Assembly (NCBI RefSeq): GCF_021155765.1
Contig: NC_060108.1
Coordinates: 26,375,025-26,439,024, forward strand
Origin: Diprion similis
Taxonomy: Eukaryota; Arthropoda; Insecta; Hymenoptera; Diprionidae
Length of the DNA stretch: 64,000 nucleotides
Direction: 5' to 3'
Positions 21,443 through 64,000 of this stretch are shown one piece after another (position 1 is the stretch's first letter; each line of letters starts with the position of its first letter). Below the pieces are notes generated by a model that saw only the letters and a list, made by a program, of their open reading frames with translations, made no database searches and had not been told where the DNA came from. The position numbers and the translations under genes are program-made.

Positions 21443-21830
21443 TACTTCGATTACATGCGACTCGCTCCTGCTTTTACTGCTTTTGGATAACCCTCGCGAG
21501 GTGATCAACGCCAGTCCGAAGACATTCTCGAATCGCGACACGCACCTATGGATATTCACTCACCGCACCCTTCTTGGAGGCATCACATCTCGCGATATAC
21601 CGATATTCTTATTTATTCACCTACTCACTACGCCACGACACGCACTCGACATCAGGCTGCTCACAATCAGCTCCTCCTCCTTCTAGTCTTTACTACACAA
21701 GTACACACAGTCCACGGTGCACAGCGGCCATTTGCAACCTTTTTACTAGAGCCCGATGCTGGCGCCACGCCGCGTCGCAATTTCGCCTCTCGTAGTCACG
21801 TGTCGCGCTATACGCGGTGAATTACGTACA
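21443..21830 (-). promoter_or_regulatory. Probable promoter / 5' UTR of the deubiquitinase gene
   Basis: GC-richer sequence directly upstream of exon 1 on the minus strand. It holds a CACGTG E-box at 21797 and CpG-rich stretches and no TATA box, as expected for a housekeeping gene. A donor-like GCG|GTGAGTG at about 21566-21562, preceded by an ATG, could end a short upstream exon. The transcription start cannot be placed from sequence alone. Confidence 0.35.
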
Positions 21831-26782: not shown

Positions 26783-28462
26783 TTAGTCATCGCAAGATTT
26801 AACGAGGGGATGAATGACCACGGATGCTCCAGCGCAGCCTATCGTGTTCTGAATGAAGTCTTGGAAGTTGCTCTCGATGACCCACATCAGCCTCTTGTAT
26901 CCGGGAACAACGCCGGTGGCAAGACGACATTCGCCGCCCTTTTGTACCAGGAGGAAATTGTCGCTCTTGAAGCAGGTGTCCGTGTTCCACATGTATATGT
27001 CGGACTCGCCTGAAAATAAAACGAATTTGAATTCCTCGATGTCTGAGTTGCGCAATAACTTATACGGTACAATGTCGAAAGCAATACATTTATTTTTACC
27101 TGCAAGCGTAACGAATGCATATGGCAACACTCGTTGATAACCAATTCGTGTGTAAGTCTTTGACGAATGATTTTTTGCGAGTATCACTCGATCGAAAATT
27201 GACTAGCAATATATCGTTTGACTCTAAATCATTTGTTCGAGAAGTCGCTTACGATGAAAAATTCTACTCATTTCATTTTCATTAATGGTCTCTTGTGAAC
27301 TAATGAAGTACAGACCAGTCCAAAATTGGAACTGATGACCACAACCGGACGCGATATTGACTCATGCAAATGGTAATGAAGCTAATTTTCATACATGCAC
27401 CTTGAAGTCGATATTCTTGGTGCCATTAAGCGCGCAATTATTAGACAATGAATCAGAATTATCTGTTACCAATCGAAGATTCGATTGGCGACTGGTCCGA
27501 TTGCAAATTGCTTTATATTCTTGAAGAAGTCTTATGGACTCACCCTTGTTCCTGAAGAAGAGGGCCGCGCCTCCGTCGGTACCAAGAAGAACAATCTTAG
27601 CGTTCTTTACGCCGACATCAACGACGGCACCGTTGGTAGATCCTTTGCGAAGATGAGCAGTCTTGATGCTGAACATCCTACTGGAGCTTAGGTAAGTGAA
27701 ATAGAGAACAGTAGCACCGCAGGGTTTTCTTACAAGGGCGAGGTAGAGGACATCGCGTCTGGCGCATCCGAGGGTTACAGCCTTGGGTAAAACGACACGG
27801 AATCCACGGTTCCCAAGGACGTCGAAGACGATGATGGCGCGAGTGGCGGCGTCGGATATGTAAAGGAATATGCGCCCGTCCTCGGCGAGGTCGACGGCGA
27901 GGTACTGAAGCCTGGAGGCGGCGGAGACGAGGGTGCTAAGGTCGACTACCTTGACGACCTTTCCGGTCTTGACGTTGATGCCGACGACCTTTGGCGCGCA
28001 CCTTCGCACAGGTTGTGGCTCCAGGGTGTATACGATCCCGGCGTCCAGAACCCAGAGGATGTCCTGGGCGTCCAGGAAGAGGTCGACGGCGCTTTGGATC
28101 GCCCCGCAGTTGCCCTCTTCCTGCATCGACCAGCACGGGAAGGGCGTGATCGTTGCTGCGCAGCCCTTGTTCTTCAGCGAAACGATACCGAGCGTGAAGG
28201 GAACGCCGACCTTGAACCGTGGCATCGCGACGAAGACCTCATCCTTGTATATCTGAACTCGGGTGGCTATGATGTTCTTAGGTACGTAGCGTCCGTTCGT
28301 CTCGTAGATGGTCTTCGTGCTGGCGCAGGGCCAGGCTAGGTTCTGTCCTGATAGGGTGTACGTCAGGTCAGGGAGCAGCTGCTTGTCGCAGGACATCGAG
28401 GCGGAGGCGCATCCCAGTGAGAGGACGAACGCGCAGAGCGCGCCCAGGAGGAATCGGTTCAT
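26783..28462 (-). CDS. yellow-g2: Yellow-g2-like secreted eggshell protein
   Basis: Coding exons 28462-27544 and 27009-26783 join at phase 1 (GT-AG) into 381 residues. The ATG starts a clear signal peptide (FLLGALCAFVLSLGCASA). Landmarks: LAWPCASTKTIYETNGRYVP, VFVAMPRFKVGVPFTLG, PFPCWSMQEEGNC, DILWVLDAGIV, CAPKVVGINV, SRLQYLAVD, FTYLSSSRMFSIKT, LLGTDGGAALFFR, WNTDTCF and a Cys-containing tail. The g/g2 type is recognised by the MQEEGNC block and SSSRMFSIKT; g2 rather than g is chosen from the tail (GCAGASVVIHPLVK). In Drosophila the g/g2 pair acts in ovarian follicle cells on the vitelline membrane. A leader intron (28552-28475) separates the TATA-bearing promoter from the coding start. It lacks both introns of the neighbouring yellow-g and has one that yellow-g does not. 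Confidence 0.85.
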
Positions 28463-28474
28463 CCTGTTTCGGAT

Positions 28475-28619
28475 CTGCCGAGGGGAATCAAGCGAATCAG
28501 ATTAAACAGCCTTGAGGAGAAAATTAAGGGGACGGAGGTCTTGAGTACTTACCGAATAACGTGTGGAACTGATGAAACGACCAAAGTACATGTGAAATTC
28601 CTTCGTCGGGGTTATATAT
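28475..28619 (-). promoter_or_regulatory. yellow-g2 core promoter and leader intron
   Basis: On the minus strand TATATAAC occupies 28619-28612. A leader exon of roughly 30 bases would then start near 28585 and end at 28553 with donor TTCG|GTAAGT. The intron closes at CCTCGGCAG (28475), 12 bases before the ATG. A TATA box plus a short leader fits a strongly regulated tissue-specific gene. Confidence 0.65.
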
Positions 28620-30108: not shown

Positions 30109-30212
30109 CTGTCTCTCAGTCCCGCGGCAAACTCTCGTCGGTAATAATTAATAAATTACCGAATTACTCAAAATTCGAATAAAAAATAAATAAAAATAAC
30201 GCCGAGTAAAAA

Positions 30213-31515
30213 ATGCTGCGATTATTAACGGTGGCGTGCGCCCTCGCCGCCGTGTCAACGGCCTACGATTGCAACCGCGGGGTAGAAGTGAAGAGCGTCC
30301 AATGGACCGGTGGATCCTTCGAATGGCCCTGTTCAACGACGAAAAGCATCTTCAAGAACAGCGGCCGGTACAACACAAAGAACGTGATCGCAACCCGCGG
30401 CCAAATCTACAGAGACGAGGCTTTCCTGGCATTACCAAGGTAACGAAACAGTCATATATCTGGTCACGTTTGATCTCCTGACCTTTTTCTCACCGGCCTC
30501 TTCGTCCTTAGGTACAAGTCCGGGGTTCCTGTGACCGTCGCCAAGGTCTCACTGAGAAGCAAGGGATGCTCTGCAACCCTGACGGCCTTCCCGTGCTGGT
30601 CGATGCAGGAAGAAGGAACCTGCAGCGCATTCCAAAACGCGGTAGACCTCTTCCTCGACCCCCAGGACATCCTATGGGTCCTCGACACTGGCGTGGTTCA
30701 CACTCTTGAGGAGCCGGTGTACAGATGCCCGCCCAAGGTCGTCGCCATTAACGTGAAAACTGGCAAGGTGAGGAGGTGGGAGGGCCGAAAAAAGAGAGCA
30801 ATCCTCGAGATTTATGTTTACGGTCTTCGCATTCTTTCAATAACAATTATCCATCTCTCTCTTCTTCTCGTCGTTGCAGATCGTCAAGACCATCGACCTC
30901 AGCGGCCTTGCCAGCGCTTCTTCTCGTCTGCAATACCTCGTCGTCGATTACTCGTCAGACGGACGGATAACTCTCTACGTTTCGGACGCAGCGATGCGAG
31001 CTATCCTTGTTTACGACGTGACGGCCGGCAGAGGCTACCGAGTCGTTCTTCCGGCGGCGGTTACGTCGGGGGCGGCGCGTCGTGACGTCTTGTACTTGGC
31101 GCTTATCCGTCGGGCTGACGGCAGCAGCTGCCTCGTCTTCACGTACCTGAGCAGCTCGAGGATGTTTACGATAAGGACGGAGTACCTGCGGAAGGGATCA
31201 GCCTCCGGGAAGGTCCATGATCTCGGACCGAAGCCTGGCACCATCGTGATCCTTGGTACCGACGGCGGCGCTGCCCTCTTCTTCAGGTACGAAGGCCGCC
31301 CTGAGATCTACAGATGGGACACCGCCAATTGCTTCAAGCAGGAGAACTTCCAGCTTGTATACCAGGGCACGAACTGCTTGCTCGCCACCCAGGTGATCGT
31401 CGACTACAAACGCGGCCGCATGCGCGTCCTCGAGTCAAACTTCCCCGACTTCATCCAGGGCACCGTTGGCTGCGGCGCTAATCAAGCTCTCACCATAATG
31501 CAAGCCTGCACCTGA
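30213..31515 (+). CDS. yellow-g: Yellow-g-like secreted eggshell protein
   Basis: Exons 30213-30439, 30512-30767 and 30880-31515 encode 372 residues. The signal peptide is LLTVACALAAVSTA. Landmarks: FEWPCSTTKSIFKNSGRYN, AFLALPRYKSGVPVTV, PCWSMQEEGTC, DILWVLDTGVVHTLEEP, CPPKVVAINVKTGK, LQYLVVDY, YVSDAAMRAILVYDV, LSSSRMFTIRTEYL, ILGTDGGAALFFR, VLESNFPDFIQGTVGC. Introns interrupt the Arg after ALP (phase 2) and follow KTGK (phase 0). It is a close paralogue of the divergent yellow-g2 gene about 1.7 kb away; the two names could be swapped, but the tail here lacks the GASVVIHPL pattern of g2. By family knowledge it contributes to vitelline membrane integrity. The GC-rich third exon contrasts with the AT-rich flanks. 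Confidence 0.85.
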
Positions 31516-43673: not shown

Positions 43674-44090
43674 GTAAGCATCGGTATAGACATGGAATTG
43701 TTTAACCGACCGTATAATCGACAGTCACTTAAACGGTAAACTTTTTTGATTTCATAACAATTAGATGATTTTCAATTTTATCACTGATATATCCCAACAT
43801 TTTTACAAGTGTATCTAAACCGGCACTGCTAAGATGTTGGTCAGAATTCGAATTCGTTCAAGTCTCAGCGATGAATTATTCATTCAATACACTGTTTTAC
43901 AATTTCCTCATACCATAGTAATATGACGTTTCGAATGTCCGAAATCAGTTCGAGACCAAAATATGTTAATTTTGTTGAAACTTTACAGAAATCTAACTCT
44001 AGCCTTGCAATATCGTCAACATTTTAATAATTACCAAAATAGCTTGCCAGACGAAATATTTAAAAATATGTCCAATTGATAACCGCATCA

Positions 44091-44334
44091 ATTACTGCCT
44101 AGCCGTAGTTTTTCGAATCGTAAACAAGATGATTGCAGCGTCTGATATAGCAATAATTACGTAAAAGCAATGGTCTTACTGTTTGTACATGCGGTAAAAA
44201 CGCGTCTTGATATGCAGCGGAAGAAAATTAATCACCAGTCCGATGGAGTTAGAGAAAATCCATGAAGCATTGCGAGTGGATGCGTTATCGATGTATGTAT
44301 ATTCCGAATAGTGACGTCATTCGAATTTATCATC
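44091..44334 (-). pseudogene. Broken copy of a membrane-protein-like open frame
   Basis: The counterpart of the 80-codon minus-strand frame at 51774-51532. Relative to that copy it has a one-base loss near 44244 and a stop at 44178-44176 (CAG CAA becomes CAG TAA). The peptide is not recognised, so whether either copy was ever a gene is open. Confidence 0.25.
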
Positions 44335-45652
44335 GAGCGGTATTTTCAGATAAGGGGGAACCCCTGACAAAATCCTAATGCTCCGAAAAAAGCAGACGCA
44401 ATTTTTTTAACCGCAGAAATAACTTATTATCTTCCCGACCACGAAGGGAAATTTTTACATATTACGATTGATAATGAGGTGAGATGACCTCTTTGGCAGA
44501 TAGGCTTCTTAGAAAACATTCAAAAATCCAGTATCCCACGCCTCGTTGTACACAACTTGTTCGTGATCGTTTAGTGGTCTGCCGTCGGTCGCTTAGCTAT
44601 TATTACTGTAAGTAATACGAACGTCCAGCCACCTGAGTTTCGGAGAAATATTTTCTTTCACGCTCGGAAATTTCATTTTTTCTTGCGTAGCCGATAAGAA
44701 TCACAGAGACTGTACCGAGAATTAAGAATTTCAAAACTTGGCTGATTTTTCGTACTTGTTCAGCGCTTTTGTTCACTTGGCGACGCAAATAGCGTCATCA
44801 TTGGAAAAAACGAGCTACCGAGGCCAGCGGCTCTGCAATATTTCGAGACTTTAATGTAACTTCAGTAGTAATACCACCGTTTAATACGTCCTCCTGTGAT
44901 TCACAGCTTTCACAACTACGTCGCATCTAAGATTTTTGAATAACGTCCCGACACAGTGATTGCGCCCTGAATACCTAATACTTGACCGGAACTTATCTCG
45001 ATAATGACTTTCTAATTAGACTACAGACAGCTTTAGCCAATTAGAAATCATTATCTTTCCCCAGAATTGTTCTGCCTCAAAACCATTGAATGTCGTGATA
45101 TTTGTCGAAAAATTAAGCGCACGGATGAAATTTAAAGCCATTCTTATTCAGTTCAGATTGATGATTTTCATAAAACTGTACAATCGTACAGAGATTCTAC
45201 TTTTGGAAAAGATGTCAAAGAATAAAGTGGACTTGTATCAATCATCCTCAATCATAGGATAGAAAAACAAGAAATCAATCGTCGAATCGTGTAGTCAGGT
45301 TTAAATTTTCATTACACATTGTTATACGTTATAATTGAAAGAATAAAAACTTTTCTTATTTCGTTGACGTTTCAAATCTACGACTGAGAAAATCTCAAGG
45401 TATAATCAGTAAGTAGAAACTAAATGACGACGTTCCTCATCATCCGGATATGATATGCCGTTACACGTGTATGATTATACACACACACACACAATATACT
45501 TTCAAACTCGTGCATGTTAGTTAAAGTTAAAGTTTACCTATAGAATTACGATTCTGAAGGCAAGCAAGTAATGCCGACACACTCTAGGAGGTACAGTATA
45601 TACTCACCATTGATTATTATTCAATCGCGCTGTATTTTCCGTAGGTGAAGCC

Positions 45653-48039
45653 ATGATGGACCTTCGTCGAATGACCTCAGGTGCAGTCTTTGTCATTTTT
45701 ATCATCTTGGGGGTCCGGGCCCACTTTCCGAAGGACAAATTCCGGAACATTTACTCCTGGAAGGCCCTGGAGTTCGATTTTCCGACACCCGAAGCGAAAG
45801 AGGCCGCCATTGCGCTGGGCGAATTCATACCTGGCAAACCGCTGCCCATCGACGTTGACATCTATCACAGGAGTGAGTTTACCATCTACATTCTGCGATT
45901 TGAACACTAGAGGAAAAGGACATAGAAAAGGAGATAGCAATCTCTTATGGCGGACTCTGCATGACTTCCTGTCCGCGTAGCAATCCGGACGGAGCTTTTT
46001 TGGGATCGGCTATCACCGTCTGGAGAAAAATGATTCAAGCGTGTAGTTTGGGCGTAAAAAGTTTTCCAAAGTTCGCTGTCGCTGCACTACGTCCTTGAAT
46101 TGATGCGCGACAAGGAAAATTGAAAGAAAAAATTAGCAGAAACAAGTAGAGGCACCAGTTACGCAATAGTTAGGATGCGAGTTGGTAACATTTGCAAGTA
46201 TAATTCAGGAGGAGTAAAAACAACACACCGAGTGTGCTTAATCCGCGGTAATTACATTTGAATTTGCGGAGACGTATCAGGTACACGGTATGATGAGCCC
46301 GTTCGTGCGACTGGTGTATTCACATTTTGAAGATTGGAGGTCAGTCATTTACGACCATATAGCCTTCACCCCATCTCATCAACGATCAATGTTAGCGACC
46401 AAAATCTGGTGCTTAGTGATTCCCGTTCACCAGCCAATTGCTGATTCTTGTTTGCTGCCTACTAGATGGGATTAATACCGGCACTCATCTCAGTGTTTCA
46501 CATTAATGTAATAAAACAAAAACCAGTTTTACAACTCTGGTGAAAAAAAGGTGTTCGATTGGAAGACGAATTTTGTTATTCACGTTTCATCTTTACCCAG
46601 CACAAAAATTCATAGATTTTATTGACGTAGCTCCAGACTTGGCGGTTTTAAAAATAGCTTAAACTCACGTTGACATCACATTTACAGGCGGTGCTAGACC
46701 GAGAACTTTCATATCAATACCACGATTCCAACAAGGAGTACCAGTAACATTGGGCTACGTAACGAACGTTGCTTCGAATGATGGCAATCCGATAATCGCT
46801 CCTTTCCCAAACTGGGATTGGCATCGATCTGGCGATTGCGAGGGTATGACCAGCGTTTGGAGGATGGAGGTGAGGTAGACTTTGGTTTGAAATGAAAATA
46901 TTCGTGGAAACGAAGAGGCAACTCGAACCCTGTGTAGAAGTATTCAATGTCCAAGGTATTAACCTTATTTCACATCCGCAGATTGACCGTTGCGGCCGAT
47001 TGTGGGTGATGGACACGGGAAAAATCGAGGATAGCCAAGTCTGCCCGCCACAGCTGCTCGCCTTCTCGCTAGAGACAAACCAGCTCCTTTCGCGTTACAA
47101 ATTCCCGAAGAACCAGGTTACAGCGAACTCCCTCTTCGTGACTCCGATCGTCGACGTGCGAAGTCAGTTTTGCGACGACACATTTGTCTACGTCGCCGAC
47201 GTGACCGGGTTCGCCCTGGTCGTCTACGACCACCGGAACATCCGAAGCTGGAGGATAAATAACAACCTGTTCTACCCCTACCCGAACCACGGGACGTTCT
47301 CCATCAAGGGTGACGTCTTCGATCTGATGGACGGCATCCTGGGGATGACGTTGAGCCCTCTGAGGCCAGACGAGGATAGAATCCTGTACTTCCACTCGCT
47401 GGCGAGTAAAGTTGAGTCCTACGTCGCGACCTCGGTTATAAGGTGAGAGAAGTGCCAATTTTGAACGAACACCCAGAGGCCTAACCGCAGAGCGCGTTTC
47501 TGGTTTCAGGAACTATGCTCTCTTCCACGAGAATCCCGGAGGTGCCGCTCGCTCCTTCGTCTCCTTTAAGAACGAACGGAGCTCCCAATCGGCGGCCGAA
47601 GTCATGGACCAGAACGGCGTTATGTACTTCGGACTTCTTTCCGAGCTGGCAATCGGCTGCTGGAATAGCAGGAACTACGAATACGGCGATGAGTTCATTG
47701 ACAGGATCGCCGTGAACGCGGACACCCTGCAGTTCCCTTCTGGAGTCAAGGTAGTAGAAAAGCTTAGATGCCCTGGATCGGGTCAAGCAGCTCTGACGAC
47801 TTGTCGGTTTTCAGGTTATCACCGGGTCCAACGGAAAACAGCAGCTGTGGGTGATGACGGTGTCTTTCCAGCGACTCATGGTTGGAACCCTGACTCCGAA
47901 CGAAACGAACTTCCGGATCCAGGCTTCCGAGATCGACGAGCTGGTGCGCGGAACGAAGTGTGACGTCGCTTCCCTGAACATAAACGCGATCAAGGAGTCA
48001 GCGACCAGCCAAGGTGGAAGTTTGACATTTCCAAAATGA
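45653..48039 (+). CDS. yellow-e: Yellow-e-like secreted protein, copy 1
   Basis: Exons 45653-45872, 46688-46869, 46982-47442, 47510-47750 and 47815-48039; 442 residues. An acceptor (TATTTTCCGTAG) ends at 45644, just before the ATGATG start, so an untranslated leader is spliced on. The signal-like core is GAVFVIFIILGVRA. Landmarks: NIYSWKALEFDFP, PRTFISIPRFQQGVPVTLGY, PNWDWHRSGDC, CGRLWVMDTGKIEDSQVCPP, TPIVDVRSQFCDDTFVYVAD, DLMDGILGMTLSP, ILYFHSLAS, MYFGLLSELAIGCW, ETNFRIQASEIDEL. The FYP-NHGTF and LYFH-LAS segments fit the yellow-e class, linked in other insects to cuticle pigmentation and waterproofing. Exons 2 and 3 and most introns are almost identical to copy 2, but exon 1 is not. Neighbour: the MRJP-like gene 1.4 kb downstream on the same strand. 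Confidence 0.85.
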
Positions 48040-48435
48040 GTGTCAAGGTCCCGCGAAAAGTTCTCCGAATCACCCGACATGATTTCGTACTTTTCGCGGT
48101 TCGGCAAACACCGGCGCTGCAAAGTGTCCTGTGTGCATCGCAGAATGAAACCGGAGGGGTATAGTTTTTACATTGATCATGGATGATGTCAACGGTCGGA
48201 TCATATTATCGGGTGAAGTCGAGAAAGCCACGCATTGACGGTGCTCTGCTTCATATTGCAGTCACTTTGGCCGTAAAGCTGGGTGCAAATTCCTCAACCG
48301 ATTCTTCTTTTGGGTGTATATATCCCGTTAGTACTCGATACCGTTCCACACCCTTCCAGTTTACCTATTTGGACATTCTGAGGATTCTAGGATCAAACCT
48401 GTGAATAGAGAAAACGTAGTTGAGTGGAACTGTGG

Positions 48436-48441
48436 AATAAA
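48436..48441 (+). terminator. Poly(A) signal of yellow-e-like copy 1
   Basis: AATAAA about 400 bases after the stop codon, conserved at the matching place in copy 2. Confidence 0.6.
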
Positions 48442-49107
48442 GTTTTGTATTAATGAATTATACCATTTATGGCGCATAGAGCTGATGTGATGAAGTGAGT
48501 CGTGTAAGTTAAATGTCTCGAAAAAACCATCCTCGCTTATCAAGCGTTACGGTTCACAGTCACACAGCTTTAAAGTTTTATCGCACTTCTGCGTGTAAGC
48601 TGTCACAATACTTTGACTTTTGTTAGAATATAAACGCATGTCACGAGTTAAGACGAAGAAAAATGTCAATGAATGAATTGTATAAATTATTAAACAATTA
48701 TAGTTATGAGTCCAATCGCCGCAATAAGGAAAGTTGAGTTGCTCAGTGAAAGACTTACAATCAATAGAATGCACTCAGTAATTATGTATACATTTATAAT
48801 ATTTTAAGTCAAGTACAATAGTAAATGTGCATTGATAGAAATATGAATTTATCTTGTGTTTGTGCTCTCACTAACTGCCCCGATCACATTGAATTCGAAC
48901 TCTTGCGTTTAGCCATGATGATATTTACACTGCGCTCGACTTCCAGTCTCCAAGAGTTCGGGGGAATCAAATGTCCTAGTTACCACTCCTTCAGAGAGAA
49001 GCATCCAAGCAGAATGGAATTTTGATACTGACCTGCAAACAGAATACAGCTCGAAATTAAACACCTGTACCAACAATATCAGGGCCGCTAATGTAGGTCT
49101 CACAAGA

Positions 49108-49193
49108 TATATACCCGCCGCATTGCTGAAGTAAATTATACGAGCTGTTGAGGTAGTTACGAATAGAAGTCGAGGTGAACACGAACACTCAGA
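49108..49193 (+). promoter_or_regulatory. TATA box and leader exon of MRJP-like copy 1
   Basis: TATATA at 49108-49113 in a GATATATACCC context. A leader exon starting near 49138 would end at 49193 with donor CTCAGA|GTAAGT. The intron (49194-49406) closes at TGTGTTCCAG, 33 bases before the ATG at 49440. Copy 2 has the same arrangement. Confidence 0.6.
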
Positions 49194-49439
49194 GTAAGTC
49201 AGTAATCATGAAAACTCATTAAGTTTACCGAATGTCAATCATTTCATGCATAATATTCCGATGGAAATTACGTAGCTGTAGAAACAAAATGTACATAATC
49301 AGTTTGATTGGAGGATATTGTTGAATTATTTCTCATCTTTTGTTTTCACCCAGTCACGTACGCATTATCAAGTTTCAAATGAAGAACGTTTTCTACTGTG
49401 TTCCAGTTTCACTTCGAGTAGGAATCGAAGAATCGTAAA

Positions 49440-51008
49440 ATGACAACCCCGTTTCAATCATTTCGTATACTGACAATTGTATTGTCATGTGTTGGCTCGT
49501 TTTTGGCAGCAGAACTCAGAACTATCTATCAATGGAAGTACATAGAATACACCTGCGAAAATCCACTTGATGAGCAGACGTTCAAAGTTTCCGAAGAATA
49601 CAATTACACGAAAATCATACCAATTGATTTCCAGAAAACCTCGGGTACAATCTGCAGCGAACATATGATCACAAAATAATCACCCGATGCTCCTACAGCT
49701 TAAAACTTCCGTTTCCAGATAATAGAGTTCTGGTTACAACACCCAGATTTTCCCACAGAGCGCCAAGTTTGTCAATTGTTTCCGCTCAGATCGGGGATGG
49801 TGGTCCGTTGTTGGAACCCTATCCAAGTTGGGATTGGCATGAGACAGGAAGTTGTGGCGATGAAATAATAACAAGCGTGTCCCGTCTTTTCGTGAGTACC
49901 AAATCATCCCGTGTCGCCTCCTAAGACTGAATGAATATTTTTCCAGACTGACAGTTGCGGCAGACTATGGTTCGTCGACTCCGGGAAGATAGGAAGCGAG
50001 CAGGTTTGTTCAGCTCGGCTGTTCGCCTTCAACACGACAACCGACCAGGTGATCCATCGCGTTGATATTCCAAATGAGTTGACCCACAATTCCGTGAATC
50101 CGAGTAAGGGCCGACTTGAGATACAGATCGTCGAGACGCGGGGAGACTCGTGCGAAGAGACTTGGGTTAGTCACCGGCTGTCAACTCGAAATTGTTTCCG
50201 TTAAAAATTTGATTTTTACGAAAGAATTCTCCTTAGGCTTACATTGGGGACCCGGAGGGCTATGGTCTTGTTATTTGGGATGGTTTGGACATGTGGCGTC
50301 TGGAAAACGACGATGTTTATGCCCCGGACTCATCAGCTACGACGTTCAGCGTTGCCGGAGAGAACGTGACTCTGGAACTCGGGACTTTCAGTTTGAAAAT
50401 AACGCTTCCGGGATTCATTGACGAGGATTATCTTCTACTAAGACCATTGGCCTCCTTCTCTGACTACGCGATAAGAACCGAGGATTTGCACAATTCCAAG
50501 AACAGCAGTGTGACTTACTACAAGGGCAACATTACGCTACCATCGCAAGAGCTTGTCAGCCGCTTTTCCAAGTCCGGGGTCCTCATGGGCGCCTTCACCT
50601 CGAGTTTGGCAGTGGCTTGCTGGAATCTTGCAAATCCTCTGGCGACAGAGTACGTGGTGAGTAGGAGAAGGTGGTAATAAGAACCACGATGAGAATTTAG
50701 TGGATCGTATTAGAGCCAAATTTCAACTGTCTTAGGGTACCCCGTTGGAGGACGACGAGGCTCTCCAATTTACGAGCGCTGCTAGAATTTTTGAAGGGAG
50801 TGAACCCGGATTTGAGTATGAAGAGTACTGGATGATGACCAATCGGTATCAAAAATTCGCACTGGGTACCATGGATTTTGACGATATCAATTTCAGAATC
50901 CTATCGGTCAACATCGCTGACGTCGTCAAAGGCACCGTGTGTGCGCCGAGCTCGCACAATACCACAAGCATTGAAGATAAATTTTTCTTTGAATATGAAA
51001 CAGTATAA
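49440..51008 (+). CDS. MRJP-like protein of the yellow-e3 clade, copy 1
   Basis: Exons 49440-49644, 49719-49891, 49947-50165, 50237-50656 and 50736-51008, all GT-AG, phases matching; 429 residues. The signal-like stretch is ILTIVLSCVGSFLAA. Landmarks: IYQWKYIEY, RVLVTTPRF, GDGGPLLEPYPSWDWHETG, CGRLWFVDSGKIGSEQVC, SKGRLEIQIVE, SGVLMG, VACWN, ALQFTSAARIF, WMMTNRYQKFALGTMDFDDI, NFRILSVNIADVVKGTVC. The NRYQK...INFRI tail, GGPLL-PYP and the SKGRL insertion resemble yellow-e3 and royal jelly proteins. The usual DGIxGM block is degenerate: GENVTLELG is followed by FSLKITLPGF. Yellow-e3 is the accepted ancestor of MRJPs, so this is either the e3 orthologue or an independent MRJP-like derivative. No AATAAA follows before the duplication joint. 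Function unknown. Confidence 0.83.
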
Positions 51009-51531
51009 AAACTTCCCTCACGCTCGTCCATATTCTGGTGCTCGTTACTACAGTAGTCACTCAGTTTCCCCTGTAGTGTACTTCTTTATTAACTACGCGA
51101 CTTATGCATGTATTATTAGCACTGAAATATATTTTTTTCCAATGTACTCACAGTCTGGAATAGAATGTGGAAATCTTTCCAGGAATTCAACACAAAGTTG
51201 GTTAAGATTGAATTCGGAAATGTTAAGTATAGTGTTTAAGGAATATCTTGCAAATTATATGGATAGAATTATGAACATGCGGGGGGAAGGGATTTTATTG
51301 AGGGGAAAACCTCAAAGTTTTATTCGCTACCGATAAGATACTAAACTTATTCTGCAAGTGATGTGATGTTTTGAATGTCTGAAATCAGTTCGAGACCAAA
51401 ATACGTCAATTTTGTCCTCATTTCACACAAATCGAACTCTAGCCTGGCAGTATCGTCAACATTTTGATCATCATCAAAATAGCTCGCCAGACGAAATATT
51501 TAAAAATATGTCCAATTAATTACCGCATCAA

Positions 51532-51774
51532 TTACTGCCTAGCCGTAGTTTTTCGAATCGTAAACAAGATGATTGCAGCGTCTGATATAGCAATAATTAC
51601 GTAAAAGCAATGGTCTTGCTGTTTGTACATGCGGTAGAAACGCGTCTTGATAAGCAGCGAAACAAAATTAATCACCAGTCCGATTGGAGTTAGAGAAAAT
51701 CCATGAAGCATTGCGAGTGGATGCGTTATCGATGTATGTATATTCCGAATAGTGACGTCATTCGAATTTATCAT
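51532..51774 (-). other. Unrecognised membrane-protein-like open frame in unit 2
   Basis: An 80-codon frame with two hydrophobic segments (LTPIGLVINFVSLLI and FYVIIAISDAAIILFTI). It is open here but interrupted in unit 1. It may be the last exon of a decayed minus-strand gene; I see no convincing upstream exon. A second frame further upstream (52184-51999), also hydrophobic, begins without an ATG. No family recognised. Confidence 0.2.
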
Positions 51775-53045
51775 CGAGCGGTATTTTCAGATAAGGGGGA
51801 ACCGCACCGCAGAAATAACTTATTATCTTCCCGACCACGAAGGGAAATTTTTACATATTACGATTGATAATGAGGTGAGATGACCTCTTTGGCAGATAGG
51901 CTTCTTAGAAAACATTCAAAAATCCAGTATCCCACGCCTCGTTGTACACAACTTGTTCGTGATCGTTTAGTGGTCTGCCGTCGGTCGCTTAGCTATTATT
52001 ACTGTAAGTAATACGAACGTCCAGCCGCCTGAGTTTCGGAGAAATATTTTCTTTCACGCTCGGATATTTCATTTTTTCTTGCGTAGCCGATAAGAATCAC
52101 AGAGACTGTACCGAGAATTAAGAATTTCAAAACTTGGCTGATTTTTCGTACTTGTTCAGCGCTTTTGTTCACTTGGCGACGCAAATAGCGTCATCATTGG
52201 AAAAAACGAGCTACCGAGGCCAGCGGCTCTGCAATATTTCGAGACTTTAATGTAACTTCAGTAGTAATACCACCGTTTAATACGTCCTCCTGTGATTCAC
52301 AGCTTTCACAACTACGTCGCATCTAAGATTTTTGAATAACGTCCCGACACAGTGATTGCGCCCTGAATACCTAATACTTGACCGGAACTTATCTCGATAA
52401 TGACTTTCTAATTAGACTACAGACAGCTTTAGCCAATTAGGAATCATTATCTTTCCCCAGAATTGTTCCGCCTCAAAACCATTGAATGTTGTGATATTTG
52501 TGGAAAAATTAAGCGTACGGATGAAATTTAAAGCCATTCTTATTCAGTTCAGATTGATGATTTTCATAAAACCGTATAATCGTACAAAGATTCTCCTTTC
52601 CGAGAAGATATCAAAGAATAAAGTGAACTTGTATCAATCATCCTTAATCATAGGATAGAAAAACAAGAAATCATTCGTCAAATTCTGCAGTCTGGTTTAA
52701 ACTTTCATTACACATTGTTATACGTTATAATTAAAAAAAAAACGTCTCAAATTTCGTTGACCTTTCAAATCTACGACTGAGAAAATCTCCAGGTATAATC
52801 AGTAAGTAGAAGCTAAATTACGACGTTCCTCATCATCCGGATATGACATGCCGTTACACGTGTGTGATTACACACACGCACAATATACTTTCCTACTTCT
52901 GGATATTGGTTAAAGTAAACGTTTACGTATAGAATCACGATTATGAAGGCAAGCAAGTAATGCAGACATACTCTCGGATGTACAGTGTATACTCACCATT
53001 GATTAATTATTATTCAATCGCGCTGTATTTTCCGTAGGTGAAGCC

Positions 53046-56000
53046 ATGATGGACCTTCGTCGAATGACCTCAGGTGCAGTCTTTGCCATGCTCATCATCT
53101 GGAAGGACCGGGCCCACTCTCCGAAGGATAAATTCTGGAACATTTACTCCTGGACGGCCCTGGAGTTTGCTTTTCCGACACCCGAAGCGAAAGAGGCCGC
53201 CATTGCGCGGGGCGAATTCATACCTGGCCAACCGCTGCCCATGGACGTTGACATCTATCACAGGAGTGAGTTTACCATCTACATTCTACGATTTGAACAC
53301 TAGAGTAAAAGACTACCTATCACCATCAATAAATGGACTGAATTTTTTTTTTTTAAATAATTGTGCATCGACATAACTGGTTGATGACAGATTGTTTAAT
53401 ATTACTAACGTATCGGATTTGTTACTTTTTTTTGCACTTACAGTTTAATTGTATATTTTATAAAATTGAGGACTTCGTGCGATTCAGTGTATTGATCAGT
53501 TAGCTTTGAACAGTATCATTATCGTACATTTTCAATTTTGACTGCACATGTGCGTTTCATTCATTTATTTAAAAGCATTTGTTGTTGATTGCAGTCCGAA
53601 AATCGTTGCGTGCGAGTGTATAGTTATTGTAACGAAGTTATGTTCTCACTCCTTATACATCTTCACACGGATGATGTCGATGTAACGTTCAATCGTCAAA
53701 TGTTTAATCATTTGTTTACAAATAAATAAGGTCGCCGCGTCATTGCGTCAGCGAATATTATTATAATAATAGTCAATCTCTAGACTCTAACAGAAGCTCT
53801 TCGATTCCAAATATATCCGCTTCTTTAACACATTCTTTGCTGTGAGATTTCTTCGACTCGACGTATACTCATTACGCACAAAAAACCCATGAATTCCTTT
53901 CGACGCAGTTCTTAGATTGCTTTTTATCATGTTATTATAAGCATCTTCAACTTTTCAACAAAAATGTGCCCGCCAAGTACGTAGCGCTTGGAACGATTTT
54001 TCAAGTTTGTCGGTGATGTAGAACATTTAGAACAGTTTTATTTCAAATACAAAAACCACCGGTAGATTCTAAATATGACAAGGTTTTATATATTTAAAAC
54101 AATTCGAACGATTCTGTGAGAATCTTTATGATTTAAATCTCTCAACAGTTTATTTTATATTCGTTCAGCTACGAGATAAATCCTACTACTTGTGCCTTTG
54201 ATTTGCCAGTGTATCAACTATGACGATGAAGTTAGTGACGTTACTGTAACAATGAATGTTTAAGAAAACTCGCCAGTTTACATCAGCAGAAATGTCTGAG
54301 ACTAAGGGAACCAGTATGAACAAAATAAGCTTTAATTTTGAAAAGCTAACTCCACAAAAGTAGTTTTTAAATTGTCTAATAATGATGATTTTTTAGTCTG
54401 AGATTTTGCTACACTATAACTTGACTATCTTCAGCACGATTATCAAATTGTGTGTTGTACTTTTTAATACAACACTTGTATTTTATATGTATGTCACGAA
54501 CACGAAGCTCACGAGTTTCATCTGGCCATTCTCCGATATATATATATATAACTTGGCGGTGATTCGCTGCCGCGAATCTAGATACCGAGTGTGCTTAATC
54601 CGCGGGAATAACATTTGAATGTGCGGAGACGTATCAGGTACACGGTATGATAAGCCCGTTCGTGCGACTGGTGTATTCACATTTTGAAGGTTGGAGGTCA
54701 GTCATTTACGACCATATAGCCTTCACCCTATCTCATCAACGATCAATGTTAGCGACCAAAATCCGGTGCTTAGTGATTCCCGTTCACCAGCCGATTGCTG
54801 ATTCTTGTTTGCTGCCTACTAGATGGGATTAATACCGGCACTCATCTCAGTGTTTCACATTAATGTAATAAAAACAAAACAGTTTTACAACTCTGGTGAA
54901 AAAAAGGTTTTCGATTGAAAGACGAATTTTTGTTATTCACGTTTCATCTTTACCCAGCACAAAAATTCATAGATTTTATTGACGTAGCTCCAGACTTGGC
55001 GGTTTTAAAAATAGCTTAAACTCACGTTGACATCACATTTACAGGCGGTGCTAGACCGAGAACTTTCATATCAATACCACGATTCCAACAAGGAGTACCA
55101 GTAACATTGGGCTACGTAACGAACGTTGCTTCGAATGATGGCAATCCGATAATCGCTCCTTTCCCAAACTGGGATTGGCATCGATCTGGCGATTGCGAGG
55201 GTATGACCAGCGTTTGGAGGATGGAGGTGAGGTAGACTTTGGTTTGAAATGGAAATATTCGTGGAAACGAAGAGGCAACTCGAACCCTGTGTAGAAGTAT
55301 TCAATGTCCAAGGTATTAACCTTATTTCACATCCGCAGATTGACCGTTGCGGCCGATTGTGGGTGATGGACACGGGAAAAATCGAGGATAGCCAAGTCTG
55401 CCCGCCACAGCTGCTCGCCTTCTCGCTAGAGACAAACCAGCTCCTTTCGCGTTACAAATTCCCGAAGAACCAGGTTACAGCGAACTCCCTCTTCGTGACT
55501 CCGATCGTCGACGTGCGAAGTCAGTTTTGCGACGACACATTTGTCTACGTCGCCGACGTGACCGGGTTCGCCCTGGTCGTCTACGACCACCGGAACATCC
55601 GAAGCTGGAGGATAAATAACAACCTGTTCTACCCCTACCCGAACCACGGGACGTTCTCCATCAAGGGTGACGTCTTCGATCTGATGGACGGCATCCTGGG
55701 GATGACGTTGAGCCCGTTGAGGCCAGACGAGGATAGAATCCTGTACTTCCACTCGCTAGCGAGTAAAGTTGAGTCCTACGTCGCGACCTCGGTTATAAGG
55801 TGAGAGAAGTGCCAATTTTGAACGAACACCCAGAGGCCCAACCGCAGAGCGCGTTTCTGGTTTCAGGAACTTTTCTCTCTTCCACGAGAATCCCGGAGGT
55901 GCCGCTCGCTCCTTCGTCTCCTTTAAGAACGAACGGAGCTCCCAATCCGCGGCCGAAGCCATGGACCAGAACGGCGTTATGTACTTCGGACTTCTTTCCG

Positions 56001-56396
56001 AGCTGGCAATCGGCTGCTGGAATAGCAGGAACTACGAATACGGCGATGAGTTCATTGACAGGATCGCCGTGAACGCGGACACCCTGCAGTTCCCTTCTGG
56101 AGTCAAGGTAGTAGAAAAGCTTAGATGCCCTGGATCGGGTCAAGCAGCTCTGACGACTTGTCGGTTTCCAGGTTATCACCGGGTCCAACGGAAAACAGCA
56201 GCTGTGGGTGATGACGGTGTCCTTCCAGCGACTCATGGTTGGAACCCTGACTCCGAACGAAACGAACTTCCGGATCCAGGCTTCCGAGATCGACGAGCTG
56301 GTGCGCGGAACGAAGTGTGACGTCGCTTCCCTGAACATAAACGCGATCAAGGAGTCAGCGACCAGCCAAGGTGGAAGTTTGACATTTCCAAAATGA
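53046..56396 (+). CDS. yellow-e: Yellow-e-like secreted protein, copy 2
   Basis: Exons 53046-53265, 55045-55226, 55339-55799, 55867-56107 and 56172-56396; 442 residues, same structure as copy 1 and no stop or frameshift. The acceptor before the start (TATTTTCCGTAG, ending 53037) is conserved. Exon 2 is identical to copy 1 by eye; exon 3 has only a few silent changes; exon 4 has three replacements (YA to FS, V to A). Exon 1 differs by about 14 residues with about 2 silent changes. The signal region is altered: FVIFIILGVRA in copy 1 is FAMLIIWKDRA here, putting Lys-Asp near the end of the hydrophobic core. Intron 1 is 1779 bp against 815 bp. The copy-1 promoter/leader is absent upstream, so its expression is uncertain. 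The second symbol use reflects a paralogue, not a separate class. Confidence 0.83.
53306..54582. other. Copy-specific segment in intron 1 of yellow-e-like copy 2
   Basis: About 1.28 kb that does not match the 314 bases at the same place in copy 1 (45912-46225). Homology returns at ACCGAGTGTGCTTAATCCGC in both. It is AT-rich and includes a dispersed repeat (54221) and a TA tract (about 54537-54551). Insertion here, deletion in copy 1, or replacement are all possible. Confidence 0.6.
54221..54262. repeat. Dispersed repeat copy 3 (GAAGTTAGTGACGTT core)
   Basis: It contains GATGAAGTTAGTGACGTTAC then TGTAACAATG, matching the copies at 10796 and 18592 in the same orientation. It lies inside the copy-specific intron segment. 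Confidence 0.5.
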
Positions 56397-56792
56397 GTGT
56401 CAAGGTCCCGCGAAAAGTTCTCCGAATCACCCGACATGATTTCGTACTTTTCGCGGTTCGGCAAACACCGGCGCTGCAAAGTGTCCTGTGTGCATCGCAG
56501 AATGAAACCGGAGGGGTATAGTTTTTACATTGATCATGGATGATGTCAACGGTCGGATCATATTATCGGGTGAAGTCGAGAAAGCCACGCATTGACGGTG
56601 CTCTGCTTCATATTGCAGTCACTTTGGCCGTAAAGCTGGGTGCAAATTCCTCAACCGATTCTTCTTTTGGGTGTATATAACCCGTTAGTACTCGATACCG
56701 TTCCACACCCTTCCAGTTTACCTATTTGGACATTCTGAGGATTCTAGGATCAAACCTGTGAATAGAGAAAACGTAGTTGAGTGGAACTGTGG

Positions 56793-56798
56793 AATAAA
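56793..56798 (+). terminator. Poly(A) signal of yellow-e-like copy 2
   Basis: AATAAA about 400 bases after the stop codon, at the position equivalent to copy 1. Confidence 0.6.
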
Positions 56799-57464
56799 GT
56801 TTTGTATTAATGAATTATACCATTTATGGCGCATAGAGCTGATGTGATGAAGTGAGTCGTGTAAGTTAAATGTCTCGAAAAAACCATCCTCGCTTATCAA
56901 GCGTTACGGTTCACAGTCACACAGCTTTAAAGTTTTATCGCACTTCTGCGTGTAAGCTGTCACAATACTTCGACTTTTGTTAGAATAGAAACGCATGTCA
57001 CGAGTTTAGACGAAGAAAAATATCAATAGATGAATTGTATAAATTATTAAACAATTATAGTTATGAGTCCAATCGCCGCAATAAGGAAAGTTGAGTTGCT
57101 CAGTGAAAGACTTACAATCAATAGAATGCACTCAGTAATTATGTATACATTTATAATATTTTAAGTCAAGTACAATAGTAAATGTGCATTGATAGAAATA
57201 TGAATTTATCTTGTGTTTGTGCTCTCACTAACTGCCCCGATCACATTGAATTCGAACTCTTGCGTTTAGCCATGATGATATTTACACTGCGCTCGACTTC
57301 CAGTCTCCAAGAGTTCGGTGGAATCAAGTGACGTCGTCACCACTCCTTTCAAAAGAAGCATCCAAGCGGAATGGAATTTTGATACTGACCTGCAAACAGA
57401 ACACAGCTCGAAATTAAACACCTGTACCAACAATATCAGGGCCGCTAGTGTAAGTCTCACAAGA

Positions 57465-57550
57465 TATATACCCGCCGCATTGCTGAAGTAAATTATGCGA
57501 GCTGTTAAAGTAGTTACGAATAGACGTCGAGGTGATCACGAACACTCAGA
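57465..57550 (+). promoter_or_regulatory. TATA box and leader exon of MRJP-like copy 2
   Basis: TATATA at 57465-57470. The leader exon would end at 57550, with donor CTCAGA|GTAGGT in place of GTAAGT in copy 1, a slightly weaker match. The leader intron (57551-58380) is 830 bp instead of 213 bp because it holds a foldback transposon. Confidence 0.55.
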
Positions 57551-57728
57551 GTAGGTTAGTAATCATGAAAACTCATTAAGTTTGCCTATTGTGAATTGTT
57601 TCATGCATAATATTCAGATGGAAATTACGTAGTTTTATAAACAAGTTTCACGTGATCAGATAGATTCAAGGATATATTATTGAATAATTTCTCATCTTTT
57701 CACTCAGTCACATAGGCACTAACAAGTT

Positions 57729-58352
57729 TTAAGGTGCTTATGAAGACGCGTTGTATACCTCGAAAACGCGGGGATGCAAAACTCCTATACCGCTTGAGCG
57801 ATCAGAGTGAAACTTGGGCAGTTAATGCCTTATTTTGGCAAAAAGTGGAGCGTCTTTTTAGTTTTTAAAAAATTTGGGAAAAAAATTTACAGATTGGTTA
57901 CCACCCACAGAAATTGGCCACATTTTCACAGTTGCACTAAATGGATCGAAACCGCGTGCATTACCGGCATTTGCGAAATGTCGGTAATAAATGTCGCCAA
58001 AATGAGATTTTGGTGTTCGTAATCGTAAACCAGATCAGCTGCCATTTCGTCATTTTACCATCAAATCTCATGGGAATCGGCTCAAATTGTGTGTTTCATC
58101 AGCGCCGAGTGGTATCATACGGGGGATTTCGATCCATTCAGTGTAACTGTGGAAATGTGACCAATTTCTGTGGGTGGTAACCAATCTGTAAAATTTTTTT
58201 CCACATTTTGAAAAACTAAAAAGACGCTCCACTTTTTGCCAAAATGAGGTATTAACTGCCCAAGTTTCAATCTAATCGCTCATGCGGTATGGGAGTTTTG
58301 CATCCCCGCGTTTTTGAGGTGTACAACGCATCTTTATAAATGAGCACCTTAA
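57729..58352. mobile_element. 616-bp foldback MITE flanked by TTAA duplication
   Basis: The element (57733-58348) begins GGTGCTTATGAAG and ends with GAGCACC. Its arms (57733-57951 and 58127-58348, about 220 bases each) are inverted copies with scattered mismatches. A short internal hairpin lies at 57960-57989. TTAA flanks both ends (57729-57732, 58349-58352). Unit 1 has the empty site: AGTTTCAAATGAAGAACG there corresponds to AGTTTTAAATAGAGAACG here once the element and one TTAA are removed. TTAA targeting points to mobilisation by a piggyBac-type transposase. No coding capacity. Confidence 0.85.
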
Positions 58353-58413
58353 ATAGAGAACGTTTTCTACTATGTTCCAGTTCTACTCCGAGTAGGAATC
58401 GAAGAATCGTAAA

Positions 58414-59982
58414 ATGACAACCCCGTTTCGAACATTTCGTATACTGACAATTGTATTGTCATGTGCTGGCTCGTTGTTGACAGCAGAACTCGGAACTATC
58501 TATCAATGGAAGTACATAGAATACGCAAGCGAAGACCCACTCGTAAAGCAGACGTCTAGAGTTTCCGAAGAATACAATTACACGAAAATCATACCAATTG
58601 ATTTCCAGAAAACCTCGGGTACAATCTGCAGCGAACATATGATCACAAAATAATCACCCGATGCTCCTACAGCTTAAAACTTCCGTTTCCAGATAATAGA
58701 GTTCTGGTTACAACACCCAGATTTTCCCACAGAGCGCCAAGTTTGTCAATTGTTTCCGCTCAGATCGGGGATGGTGGTCCGTTGTTGGAACCCTATCCAA
58801 GTTGGGATTGGCATGAGACAGGAAGTTGTGGCGATGAAATAATAACAAGCGTGTCCCGTCTTTTCGTGAGTACCAAATCATCCCGTGTCGCCTCCTAAGA
58901 CTGAATGAATATTTTTCCAGACTGACAGTTGCGGCAGACTATGGTTCGTCGACTCCGGGAAGATAGGAAGCGAGCAGGTTTGTTCAGCTCGGCTGTTCGC
59001 CTTCAACACGACAACCGACCAGGTGATCCATCGCGTTGATATTCCAAATGAGTTGACCCACAATTCCGTGAATTCGAGTAAGGGCCGACTTGAGATACAG
59101 ATCGTCGAGACGCGGGGAGACTCGTGCGAAGAGACTTGGGTTAGTCACAGGCTGTCAACTCGAAATTGTTTCCGTTAAAAATTTGATTTTTACGAAAGAA
59201 TTCTCCTTAGGCTTACATTGGGGACCCGGAGGGCTATGGTCTTGTTATTTGGGATGGTTCGGACATGTGGCGTCTGGAAAACGACGATGTTTATGCCCCG
59301 GACTCGTCAGCTACGACGTTCAGCGTTGCCGGAGAAAACGTCACCTTGGAACTCGGGACTGCCATTGCGAGGATACCGCCTCCGGGATTCATTGACGAGG
59401 ATTATCTTCTACTAAGACCATTGTCCTCCTTCTCTGACTACGCAATAAGAACCGAGGATTTGCACAATTCGAAGAACAGCAGTGTAACTTACTACAAGGG
59501 CAACATCACGCTGCCATCGCAAGAGCTTGTCAGAGTCTTTTCCAAGTCCGGAGTTCTCATGGGCGCCTTGGCCTCGAGTTTAGTAGTGGCTTGCTGGAAT
59601 CTGGCAAATCCTCTGGCGACAGAGTACGTGGTGAGTAGGAGTAGGTGGTAAGAAGAACCACGATGAGAATTTAGTGGATCGTATTAGAGCCAAATTTCAA
59701 CTGTCTTAGGGTACCCCGTTGGAGGACGACGAGGCTCTCCAATTTACGAGCGCTGCTAGAATTTTTGAAGGGAGTGAACCCGGATTTGAGTATGAAGAGT
59801 ACTGGATGATGACCAATCGGTATCAAAAATTCGCACTGGGTACCATGGATTTTGACGATATCAATTTCAGAATCCTATCGGTTAACATCGCTGACGTCGT
59901 CAAAGGCACCGTGTGTGCGCCGAGCTCGCACAATACCACAAGCATTGAAGATAAATTTTTCTTTGAATATGAAACAGTATAA
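58414..59982 (+). CDS. MRJP-like protein of the yellow-e3 clade, copy 2
   Basis: Exons 58414-58618, 58693-58865, 58921-59139, 59211-59630 and 59710-59982; 429 residues, intact. Exons 2 and 5 encode the same residues as in copy 1, exon 3 the same or nearly so. Exon 1 has about 13 replacements (for example Q to R, C to S, D to V, E to K) against one or two silent changes. In exon 4 a patch reads TAIARIPPPGF where copy 1 reads TFSLKITLPGF, at the degenerate DGIxGM position. The signal stretch ILTIVLSCAGSLLTA remains plausible. An AATAAA lies at 60493, outside the duplicated unit. As in copy 1, the assignment to the yellow-e3/MRJP clade rests on the NRYQKFALGTMDF and NFRILSVNI tail and on GGPLLEPYPSWDWH. 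Confidence 0.83.
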
Positions 59983-60492
59983 AAACTTCCCTCACGCTCG
60001 TCCATATTCTGGTGCTCGTTACTACAGTAGTCACTCAGTTTCCCCTGTAGTGTACTTCTTTATAAACTACGCGACTTATGCATGTATTATTAGCACTGAA
60101 ATATTTTTTTTTCTAATGTATTCACAGTCTGGAATAGAATGTGGAAATCTTTCCAGGAATTCAACGCATCGTTGGTTAAGATTGAATTCGGAAATGTTAA
60201 GTATAGTGATTAAGGAATATCTTGCAAATTATATGGATAGAATTATGAACATGCGGGGGGAAGGGATTTTATTAAGGGGAAAACCTCAAAGTTTTATTCG
60301 CCACCAATAAGACACTGAACTTTTTCGGCAATAATTACATAATGTATTATATGCAATATTCGTATATAATCCACTTATTTAGGGAGGGCTTGATATTTTA
60401 TTTCCGGTGAAACTTATTTGTTGTATGCCAAGGCATATGTTTTTTCATCTCAATGATTTGAATTATGAAAATTTGGAAAATGCTGAATGATG

Positions 60493-63400: not shown

Positions 63401-64000
63401 ATTTCATCCAATCGTAGTCTCCGGATTGGATCCGGTTAACAATATAGGTTAAACGACGCGTCCTCTTCTCACCCTTAACTCGCTACCTTGATTTCCATGC
63501 CGGGTCAGCAGCCTGCTCCCCTGCACTGCTAGTTGCACAACCAATCTGTTCAACAACCGGTAGCCACACGATCCAGCCTACAATAAAATCTGACGAAGAA
63601 TCTTTTTATCATTTTTAAAGAGCCGAGGTTCCGCATCATTCGAGACGCCCGTCTGAAATCGAGGGCAGAACATCGGAATGGCTTGGACTGTACATGCTTT
63701 CCGTATCATCCGAGATTTCACATTTCAGAGAATGAAAATTATTCAAACCAAGAAACGTCTTTGGAATGGCATCAAAATCTGGGAAACTTACTTCCGGTTC
63801 ATACTATCGTTGATCATTTGTTGTTTTTTACTTTTGTATAAACTATCTTTCATGTTTACAGAGCATTTCAAAACTTGATTGGAGATAGTATTTTCCCTCA
63901 ATTTCCGTAGTGACAGCGTATTACTGATATATTTTTGGAGTGGACACTGTCCAAAAGCCGTTCGACAAGCAGCCCCCCGTGCTAAATATATATTTCCGAT
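60500..64000. other. Right-hand flank, no gene recognised
   Basis: About 3.5 kb without a family match. A 113-codon minus-strand frame (62828-62487) starts with an ATG, but its composition is like the many chance frames of similar length in this window. A poly(C) run lies at 61643. Confidence 0.45.
61643..61666. repeat. Poly(C) homopolymer, 24 bases
   Basis: C run in the right flank; the apparent glycine-rich open frame on the minus strand is an artefact of it. Confidence 0.9.

Follow-up and report, generated by a model that had tools for sequence, protein, structure and literature searches.

In the 64,000-nucleotide stretch of the Diprion similis genome analysed here (the window; contig NC_060108.1, corresponding to C4:26375025-26439024 in a search of its own assembly of 269 Mb), a block carrying one yellow-e-like gene and one major royal jelly protein-like (MRJP-like) gene was identified as two tandem copies, A and B. 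In both genes the first exon differs between the copies, mostly by amino acid replacements. These first exons probably differ because they lie in patches spared by gene conversion beside insertions, and diversifying selection is probably not involved. A sequence-only reading of this DNA had proposed gene conversion over the gene bodies together with diversifying or relaxed selection on the secreted N-terminus. The two units and their genes are as follows.

43917 to 51356, forward strand: unit A, the first of the tandem copies, with a yellow-e-like and an MRJP-like gene, joining unit B at 51356/51357.
51357 to 60331, forward strand: unit B, a direct repeat of unit A.
45653 to 48039, forward strand: yellow-e-like gene, copy A (exons 45653-45872, 46688-46869, 46982-47442, 47510-47750 and 47815-48039).
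53046 to 56396, forward strand: yellow-e-like gene, copy B (gene model; exons 53046-53265, 55045-55226, 55339-55799, 55867-56107 and 56172-56396).
49440 to 51008, forward strand: MRJP-like gene, copy A (exons 49440-49644, 49719-49891, 49947-50165, 50237-50656 and 50736-51008).
58414 to 59982, forward strand: MRJP-like gene, copy B (gene model; exons 58414-58618, 58693-58865, 58921-59139, 59211-59630 and 59710-59982).

All four genes possess five exons, intact frames and GT...AG introns, with equal length within each gene (442 amino acids for yellow-e-like, 429 for MRJP-like), and the gene models bear out the exon coordinates of the sequence-only reading. The copy A proteins belong to the yellow/major-royal-jelly-protein family (PF03022, cut-off 19.8 bits), scoring 283 bits (yellow-e-like) and 175 bits (MRJP-like). 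The MRJP-like protein of copy A scores higher with honeybee MRJP1 (194 bits) than with dopachrome conversion enzyme (91 bits). Its yellow-e-like neighbour scores 184 bits with either, and 'yellow-e' is kept here as a label from the earlier reading. Nothing in Rfam reached the gathering threshold.

Comparison of the copies exon by exon agrees with the counts given earlier. Both first exons have 13 replaced residues, resulting from 14 replacement changes in the yellow-e-like and 13.5 in the MRJP-like gene. Codons with silent change only number two in the yellow-e-like and one in the MRJP-like exon, and path counting gives 3.0 and 4.5 silent changes, respectively. Exon 2 is free of A-B differences in both genes, and the three changes of yellow-e-like exon 3 are all silent. 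Yellow-e-like exon 4 carries three replacement changes and one silent change and exon 5 one silent change; in the MRJP-like gene exon 3 carries one replacement and exon 5 one silent change. The introns, which had been described as identical throughout, are not: yellow-e-like intron 1 is partly unrelated between the copies, over 308 of 815 bases in A (45919-46226) and 1272 of 1779 in B (53312-54583). Nor is divergence confined to the first exons. The DNA upstream of them is equally divergent, MRJP-like exon 4 (overlooked earlier) has 16 replacement and 15 silent changes, and the edges of the duplication have diverged as well. The borders of divergence also lie off the exon limits, as yellow-e-like exon 1 opens with 33 identical bases and MRJP-like exon 1 closes with 52. 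Signal peptides are normally cleaved off, and a 'secreted N-terminus' describes the replaced sites imprecisely: with cleavage sites placed by eye, six of the 13 replacements in the yellow-e-like and five of the 13 in the MRJP-like first exon fall within the presumed signal peptide.

With a miniature inverted-repeat transposable element (MITE) of copy B and the portion of intron 1 that could not be aligned excluded, A and B differ at 256 of 7070 aligned columns. Clustering of the differences exceeds chance. Two rate classes, of 0.6% and 9.7%, give a log-likelihood of -974.6 against -1100.8 for a single rate, and the longest identical non-coding run (375 columns) was equalled in none of 10,000 shuffles. 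High-rate islands were identified at both unit edges, at 45057-45605, 45686-46299, 48956-49592 and 50331-50681, together with a few short ones. The main tracts, numbered on copy A and delimited (for the three islands) by two-state segmentation, are listed below.

43917 to 44229, forward strand: left edge of unit A, divergent (29 mismatches in 313 columns).
45057 to 46299, forward strand: divergent island 1, with upstream DNA, most of yellow-e-like exon 1 and the start of intron 1, interrupted by the identical stretch 45606-45685 (51/589 at 45057-45652; 17/187 at 45686-45872).
46565 to 48609, forward strand: homogenised tract with yellow-e-like exons 2-5, introns 2-4 and the 3' flank (partner 54921-56966; 12 mismatches in 2045 columns).
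48956 to 49592, forward strand: divergent island 2, with upstream DNA and the first 153 bases of MRJP-like exon 1 (72/628).
49593 to 50330, forward strand: homogenised tract running from late MRJP-like exon 1 into early exon 4 (738 columns with 3 mismatches; partner 58567-59304), where a further paralogue, C, lies 2-23% from A by segment.
50331 to 50681, forward strand: divergent island 3, within MRJP-like exon 4 (32/351).
51122 to 51356, forward strand: right edge of unit A, divergent (14/235).

Non-coding DNA before the MRJP-like gene contributes 54 mismatches in 475 columns. Each first exon shares an island with its own upstream DNA, and the island borders ignore the exons; the divergence belongs to the mosaic and is not an exon effect. 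The stretch 45606-45685, covering the 5' untranslated region (UTR), start and first codons of the yellow-e-like gene, consists of 80 mismatch-free columns (with one 4-base length difference) in an island that is otherwise 9% divergent; it reflects either constraint on the core promoter or a very short patch of conversion.

Further MRJP-like sequences were identified beyond the duplication by the genome search.

C4:26469462-26471263: paralogue C, a nearly full copy, about 36 kb beyond copy B.
C4:26448921-26449464: relic D, which retains intron 1, the beginning of exon 2 and an exon 1 with one stop.
49551 to 49572, forward strand: a 22-base block, codons 38-45 of MRJP-like exon 1, in which A resembles D and B (58525-58546) resembles C (7 consecutive AD/BC sites).

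The frame of paralogue C (C4:26469709-26471257) is open until a stop that replaces the fourth-last residue. Exon 1 of relic D (C4:26449171-26449375) is a stop-bearing orphan with upstream DNA present and no later exons seen; it may still take part in conversion. For the yellow-e-like gene the same search returned no third copy at the DNA level, where the lack of a match is no proof of rarity.

Copies A and B are identical over MRJP-like intron 1, exon 2 and intron 2 (0/74, 0/173 and 0/55), whereas paralogue C differs from both by 10/74, 10/173 and 8/55 across the same segments. This is direct evidence of homogenisation between A and B, and the proposed conversion over the gene bodies is supported. 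Since A and C are not homogenised, their comparison gives a view of the MRJP-like exons without this effect. The ratio of replacement to silent divergence (dN/dS) between A and C is 0.81, 0.89, 0.40, 1.10 and 0.49 for exons 1 to 5; ratios for exons 2 and 4 are as high as for exon 1, which is thus no outlier in this gene.

The pattern of the 22-base block points to an exchange within the paralogue array. Its seven consecutive AD/BC sites, among 19 informative ones, form a run found in 855 of 100,000 shuffles, and the block contains 9 of the 18 base differences and 5 of the 13 replacements (T38A, C39S, N41D, D44V and E45K) of MRJP-like exon 1. More distant paralogues did not settle whether A or B was the recipient. 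With paralogue C alone as the reference, changes in the MRJP-like unit are A-derived to B-derived in the ratios 8:22 upstream, 9:8 in exon 1 and 11:18 in exon 4b; with C and D together, one site of exon 1 (49440-49592) is special to A and seven are special to B.

Diversifying selection on the first exons found no support in tests against silent, non-coding and simulated neutral change. Exon-1 dN/dS between A and B is 1.62 for the yellow-e-like gene (one-sided P = 0.34) and 1.06 for the MRJP-like gene (P = 0.48; 1.13 when the transition bias of the islands is allowed for), so that the replacement excess is not significant and neither gene lies above the neutral expectation. Both this outcome and the third-paralogue match of part of MRJP-like exon 1 count against the sequence-only reading by its own terms. 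In exon 1 of the yellow-e-like gene replacement divergence (0.086) is on a par with the divergence of the non-coding DNA upstream (0.087; Fisher P = 1.0), and in the MRJP-like gene it is 0.089 against 0.114 (Fisher P = 0.55). Under random substitution with the island spectrum, 11.7±1.8 replaced residues are expected against the 13 found in the yellow-e-like exon (P of at least this number, 0.33) and 12.4±1.8 against 13 in the MRJP-like exon (0.49). The mean BLOSUM62 score of the changes also falls within the random range (-1.08 against -0.45±0.50 for yellow-e-like; -0.15 against -0.42±0.48 for MRJP-like). As replacement divergence does not exceed that of non-coding DNA and the counts match random substitution, the first exons behave as if nearly unconstrained, and the 'relaxed' half of the earlier proposal fits both of them. 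In MRJP-like exon 4, 12 replaced codons between A and B compare with 20.2 expected (P = 0.0011; dN/dS 0.38), which suggests purifying selection; as a purifying contrast to exon 1 this exon was judged weak, the A-C ratio being 1.10.

The two large heterologies between the units lie in the islands of the first exons, and three segments are involved.

57730 to 58351, forward strand: MITE in copy B before MRJP-like exon 1, bounded by TTAA on either side and with inverted arms of about 220 bases, absent in A (site near 49374).
53312 to 54583, forward strand: 1272 bases, mostly dispersed repeat, in yellow-e-like intron 1 of copy B, unlike the intron of A (relatives cover query positions 1-637, 641-1178 and 1233-1272).
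45919 to 46226, forward strand: 308 bases of yellow-e-like intron 1 found in copy A only, the sole genome match found being itself.

The MITE is 622 bases long and ends 62 bases before the start codon of MRJP-like copy B. It combines inverted repeats, TTAA flanks, many copies and no coding capacity, its only stop-to-stop frames of at least 70 amino acids being of 74 and 79, and we take a MITE with a TTAA target to be piggyBac-like. Relatives are spread through the genome (at least 128 matches, with 40 of 1000 candidate places scored); five of these were inspected, and TTAA was present at one end in all five and at both ends in two, while in two the match fell short of the other end. The intron-1 repeat has at least 82 matches (40 of 263 candidates scored), and one relative (L040) contains a possibly gag-like frame. 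Non-coding DNA no more than 150 bases from an edge or a large heterology has 71 mismatches in 705 columns against 109 in 3746 elsewhere, and 31 of 4450 circular shifts were as extreme. The link between insertions or edges and islands is suggestive, and strongest with the edges counted.

These observations are most readily accommodated by the following sequence of events. Tandem duplication of a block comprising a yellow-e-like and an MRJP-like gene would have come first, and the copies would have diverged by about 10% where undisturbed. Repeated interlocus gene conversion would then have made the copies alike again along most of the gene bodies, failing at the edges of the duplication and by large heterologies, namely the MITE and the dispersed intron-1 repeat of copy B, which are the presumed cause of the failure. 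Both first exons and their upstream DNA, having escaped beside the heterologies, would thus retain the old divergence. First exons encode signal peptides and N-termini, and if amino acid constraint on these is weak, as the neutral-like counts suggest, most of the retained differences would be replacements, as random substitution predicts. MRJP-like exon 1 was probably shuffled further, in part, by short exchange with paralogues of the array.

Several points weigh against this explanation. Power is low, with 17 substitutions in yellow-e-like and 18 in MRJP-like exon 1. Random substitution kept the frames open in 0.53 and 0.32 of runs, and some constraint on the exon-1 frame may remain. The control that shows exon 1 to be no outlier is confined to the MRJP-like gene, as the yellow-e-like gene lacks a third copy and its exons 2-5 are homogenised. 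The association with edges and heterologies weakens when the distance is widened to 300 bases (215 of 4450 shifts as extreme) or 500 bases (163 of 4450). Restricted to the two internal insertions, it is matched by 132 of 4450 shifts at 150 bases, 499 at 300 and 350 at 500. Heterology does not explain everything: island 3 lacks any large indel, and near 44365 an indel of 45 bases sits in a homogenised tract. Moreover, islands take in 1261 of the 1409 columns when exon 1 of each gene is joined to 500 bases of promoter, an overlap equalled in 68 of 7069 shifts (for a target picked after the data were seen), and the midpoint of island 1 lies near the yellow-e-like start codon, which together leave room for selection on the 5' modules. 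For exon 1 alone, 1051 of 7069 shifts give as high an overlap.

A stronger form of the escape from conversion, compatible with it, would be decay of yellow-e-like copy B: the intron repeat would isolate exon 1, whose signal peptide would be lost, and exons 2-5 would survive through conversion by copy A. Against other family members, 7 of 16 replaced yellow-e-like sites are A-like and one is B-like (5:1 in exon 1), the best 9-residue hydropathy drops from 3.68 to 2.77 in B with a lysine and an aspartate appearing behind the stretch, and the replacement rate equals the non-coding rate. Yet copy B has neither a stop nor a frameshift, its 5' UTR and start region (counterpart of 45606-45685) is the same as in A, and polarity in the MRJP-like gene is even (6:6 of 27 sites); decay is regarded as unlikely. 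A general bias of changes towards copy B was considered on the same distant relatives and set aside, being suggestive for the yellow-e-like gene and absent for the MRJP-like gene.

Alternatively, A and B may be recent and near identical, with the islands imported from other paralogues. Both paralogue C and fragment D of the MRJP-like gene are close by, the 22-base block splits the four sequences as AD/BC, and divergence between A and B in the islands is similar to that between A and C. Beyond the block, however, A pairs with B at 9 of 12 informative sites, or at 6 of 9 once the homogenised intron is excluded, and B is not nearer to C than A is (0.179 against 0.122 upstream; 0.137 against 0.144 in exon 1). 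The yellow-e-like island is equally high though no third DNA copy was found, and the unit edges are divergent too. As a general account such imports are quite improbable, and a third paralogue as the source of exon 1 is accepted for the 22-base block of the MRJP-like gene only.

The divergence peaks could also reflect selection, if new functions of the N-terminus or promoter made local conversion harmful, as in exon 5 of the human red/green opsins. Divergence peaks under selection are described in PMC3924837, PMC2588116 and PMC3728101. In the present case dN/dS is at least 1 in both first exons, and the islands sit on the promoter and exon 1 of both genes, with island 1 centred near the start codon. 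Nevertheless, replacements are not in excess over any neutral standard applied, and 11 of the 26 exon-1 replacements lie inside presumed signal peptides. MRJP-like exon 4 diverged as well, again with no replacement excess, and the highest 100-column window of island 2 (20 mismatches) adjoins the MITE site, upstream of the exon. The probability of this explanation is accordingly put low. A broader variant appears still more doubtful, in which selection against conversion would keep both promoter and first-exon modules apart, the linked genes co-diverging in regulation and secretion while the protein bodies stay near identical, and the MITE and repeat insertions would be favoured as barriers. 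An assembly artefact, with two haplotypes set in tandem, is extremely improbable: a single assembly was examined, but the junction is clean, the outer flanks are dissimilar, tracts near 0% and 10% are interleaved, and a single contig of 27.9 Mb contains both units, more paralogues following downstream.

Other features of the window were identified around the duplication. Two more PF03022 genes (27389-28501, reverse strand, and 30210-31515, forward strand) are arranged head-to-head and contain a 74% identical inverted stretch (27957-28218 and 30511-30769); we presume that this pair is of the yellow-g/g2 type. Positions 63523-64000 are 98% identical to C4:26449514-26449991, directly behind relic D, while the rest of the array is much older; the match may represent either a recent copy or conversion across about 11 kb. 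Two pieces of ubiquitin carboxyl-terminal hydrolase, the C- and N-terminal parts of PF00443, lie on the reverse strand at 4306-5826 and 20567-21559 and likely form one gene with long introns.

A conversion mosaic of this kind can mimic exon-specific diversifying selection, as the other exons are overwritten and one exon is left with high replacement counts. Per-exon dN/dS scans of tandem duplicates that lack local non-coding controls could misjudge such cases. With two genes per unit, the locus is a natural case for asking whether transposon insertions shield duplicates from conversion. Yellow/MRJP genes are clustered in insects, and the present locus resembles these clusters in having several PF03022 genes close by, but here two different cluster genes were duplicated jointly and conversion acts between the units. 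No report of such joint duplication and conversion in this family was found, going by titles and opening abstracts only.

The mechanism itself is an ordinary one, as conversion that spares islands beside insertions and at the edges of duplications has already been published, and the locus is an instructive instance of it. Conversion persists until substitutions, transposable elements or other large indels disrupt pairing (PMC3924837), many duplicated blocks of Drosophila show raised divergence at their edges (PMC2588116), and large indels and clustered divergence can halt conversion in an intron, while indel-free exonic islands may signal selection (PMC3728101). Human red/green opsin exon 5 (as described in PMC3924837) is alike in showing a single-exon divergence peak between converting tandem genes, and unlike in that the opsin differences have known functions whereas replacements are not in excess here. 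For Drosophila melanogaster, forward simulation backed selection at two peaks of one duplicated block (Pre28), according to PMC2588116; in D. similis the counts are neutral-like and insertions are present in islands 1 and 2. A likeness is also seen with GOT1 of Tigriopus californicus, for which PMC3728101 describes islands of divergence amid more similar sequence and discusses introns of different size as conversion barriers (GOT1Sd/GOT1Sr). In the GOT1p1/p2 pair of the same source, the islands fall in exons, show no fixed indels and are read as possible selection, whereas islands 1 and 2 of D. similis comprise upstream DNA and exon 1 beside repeats.

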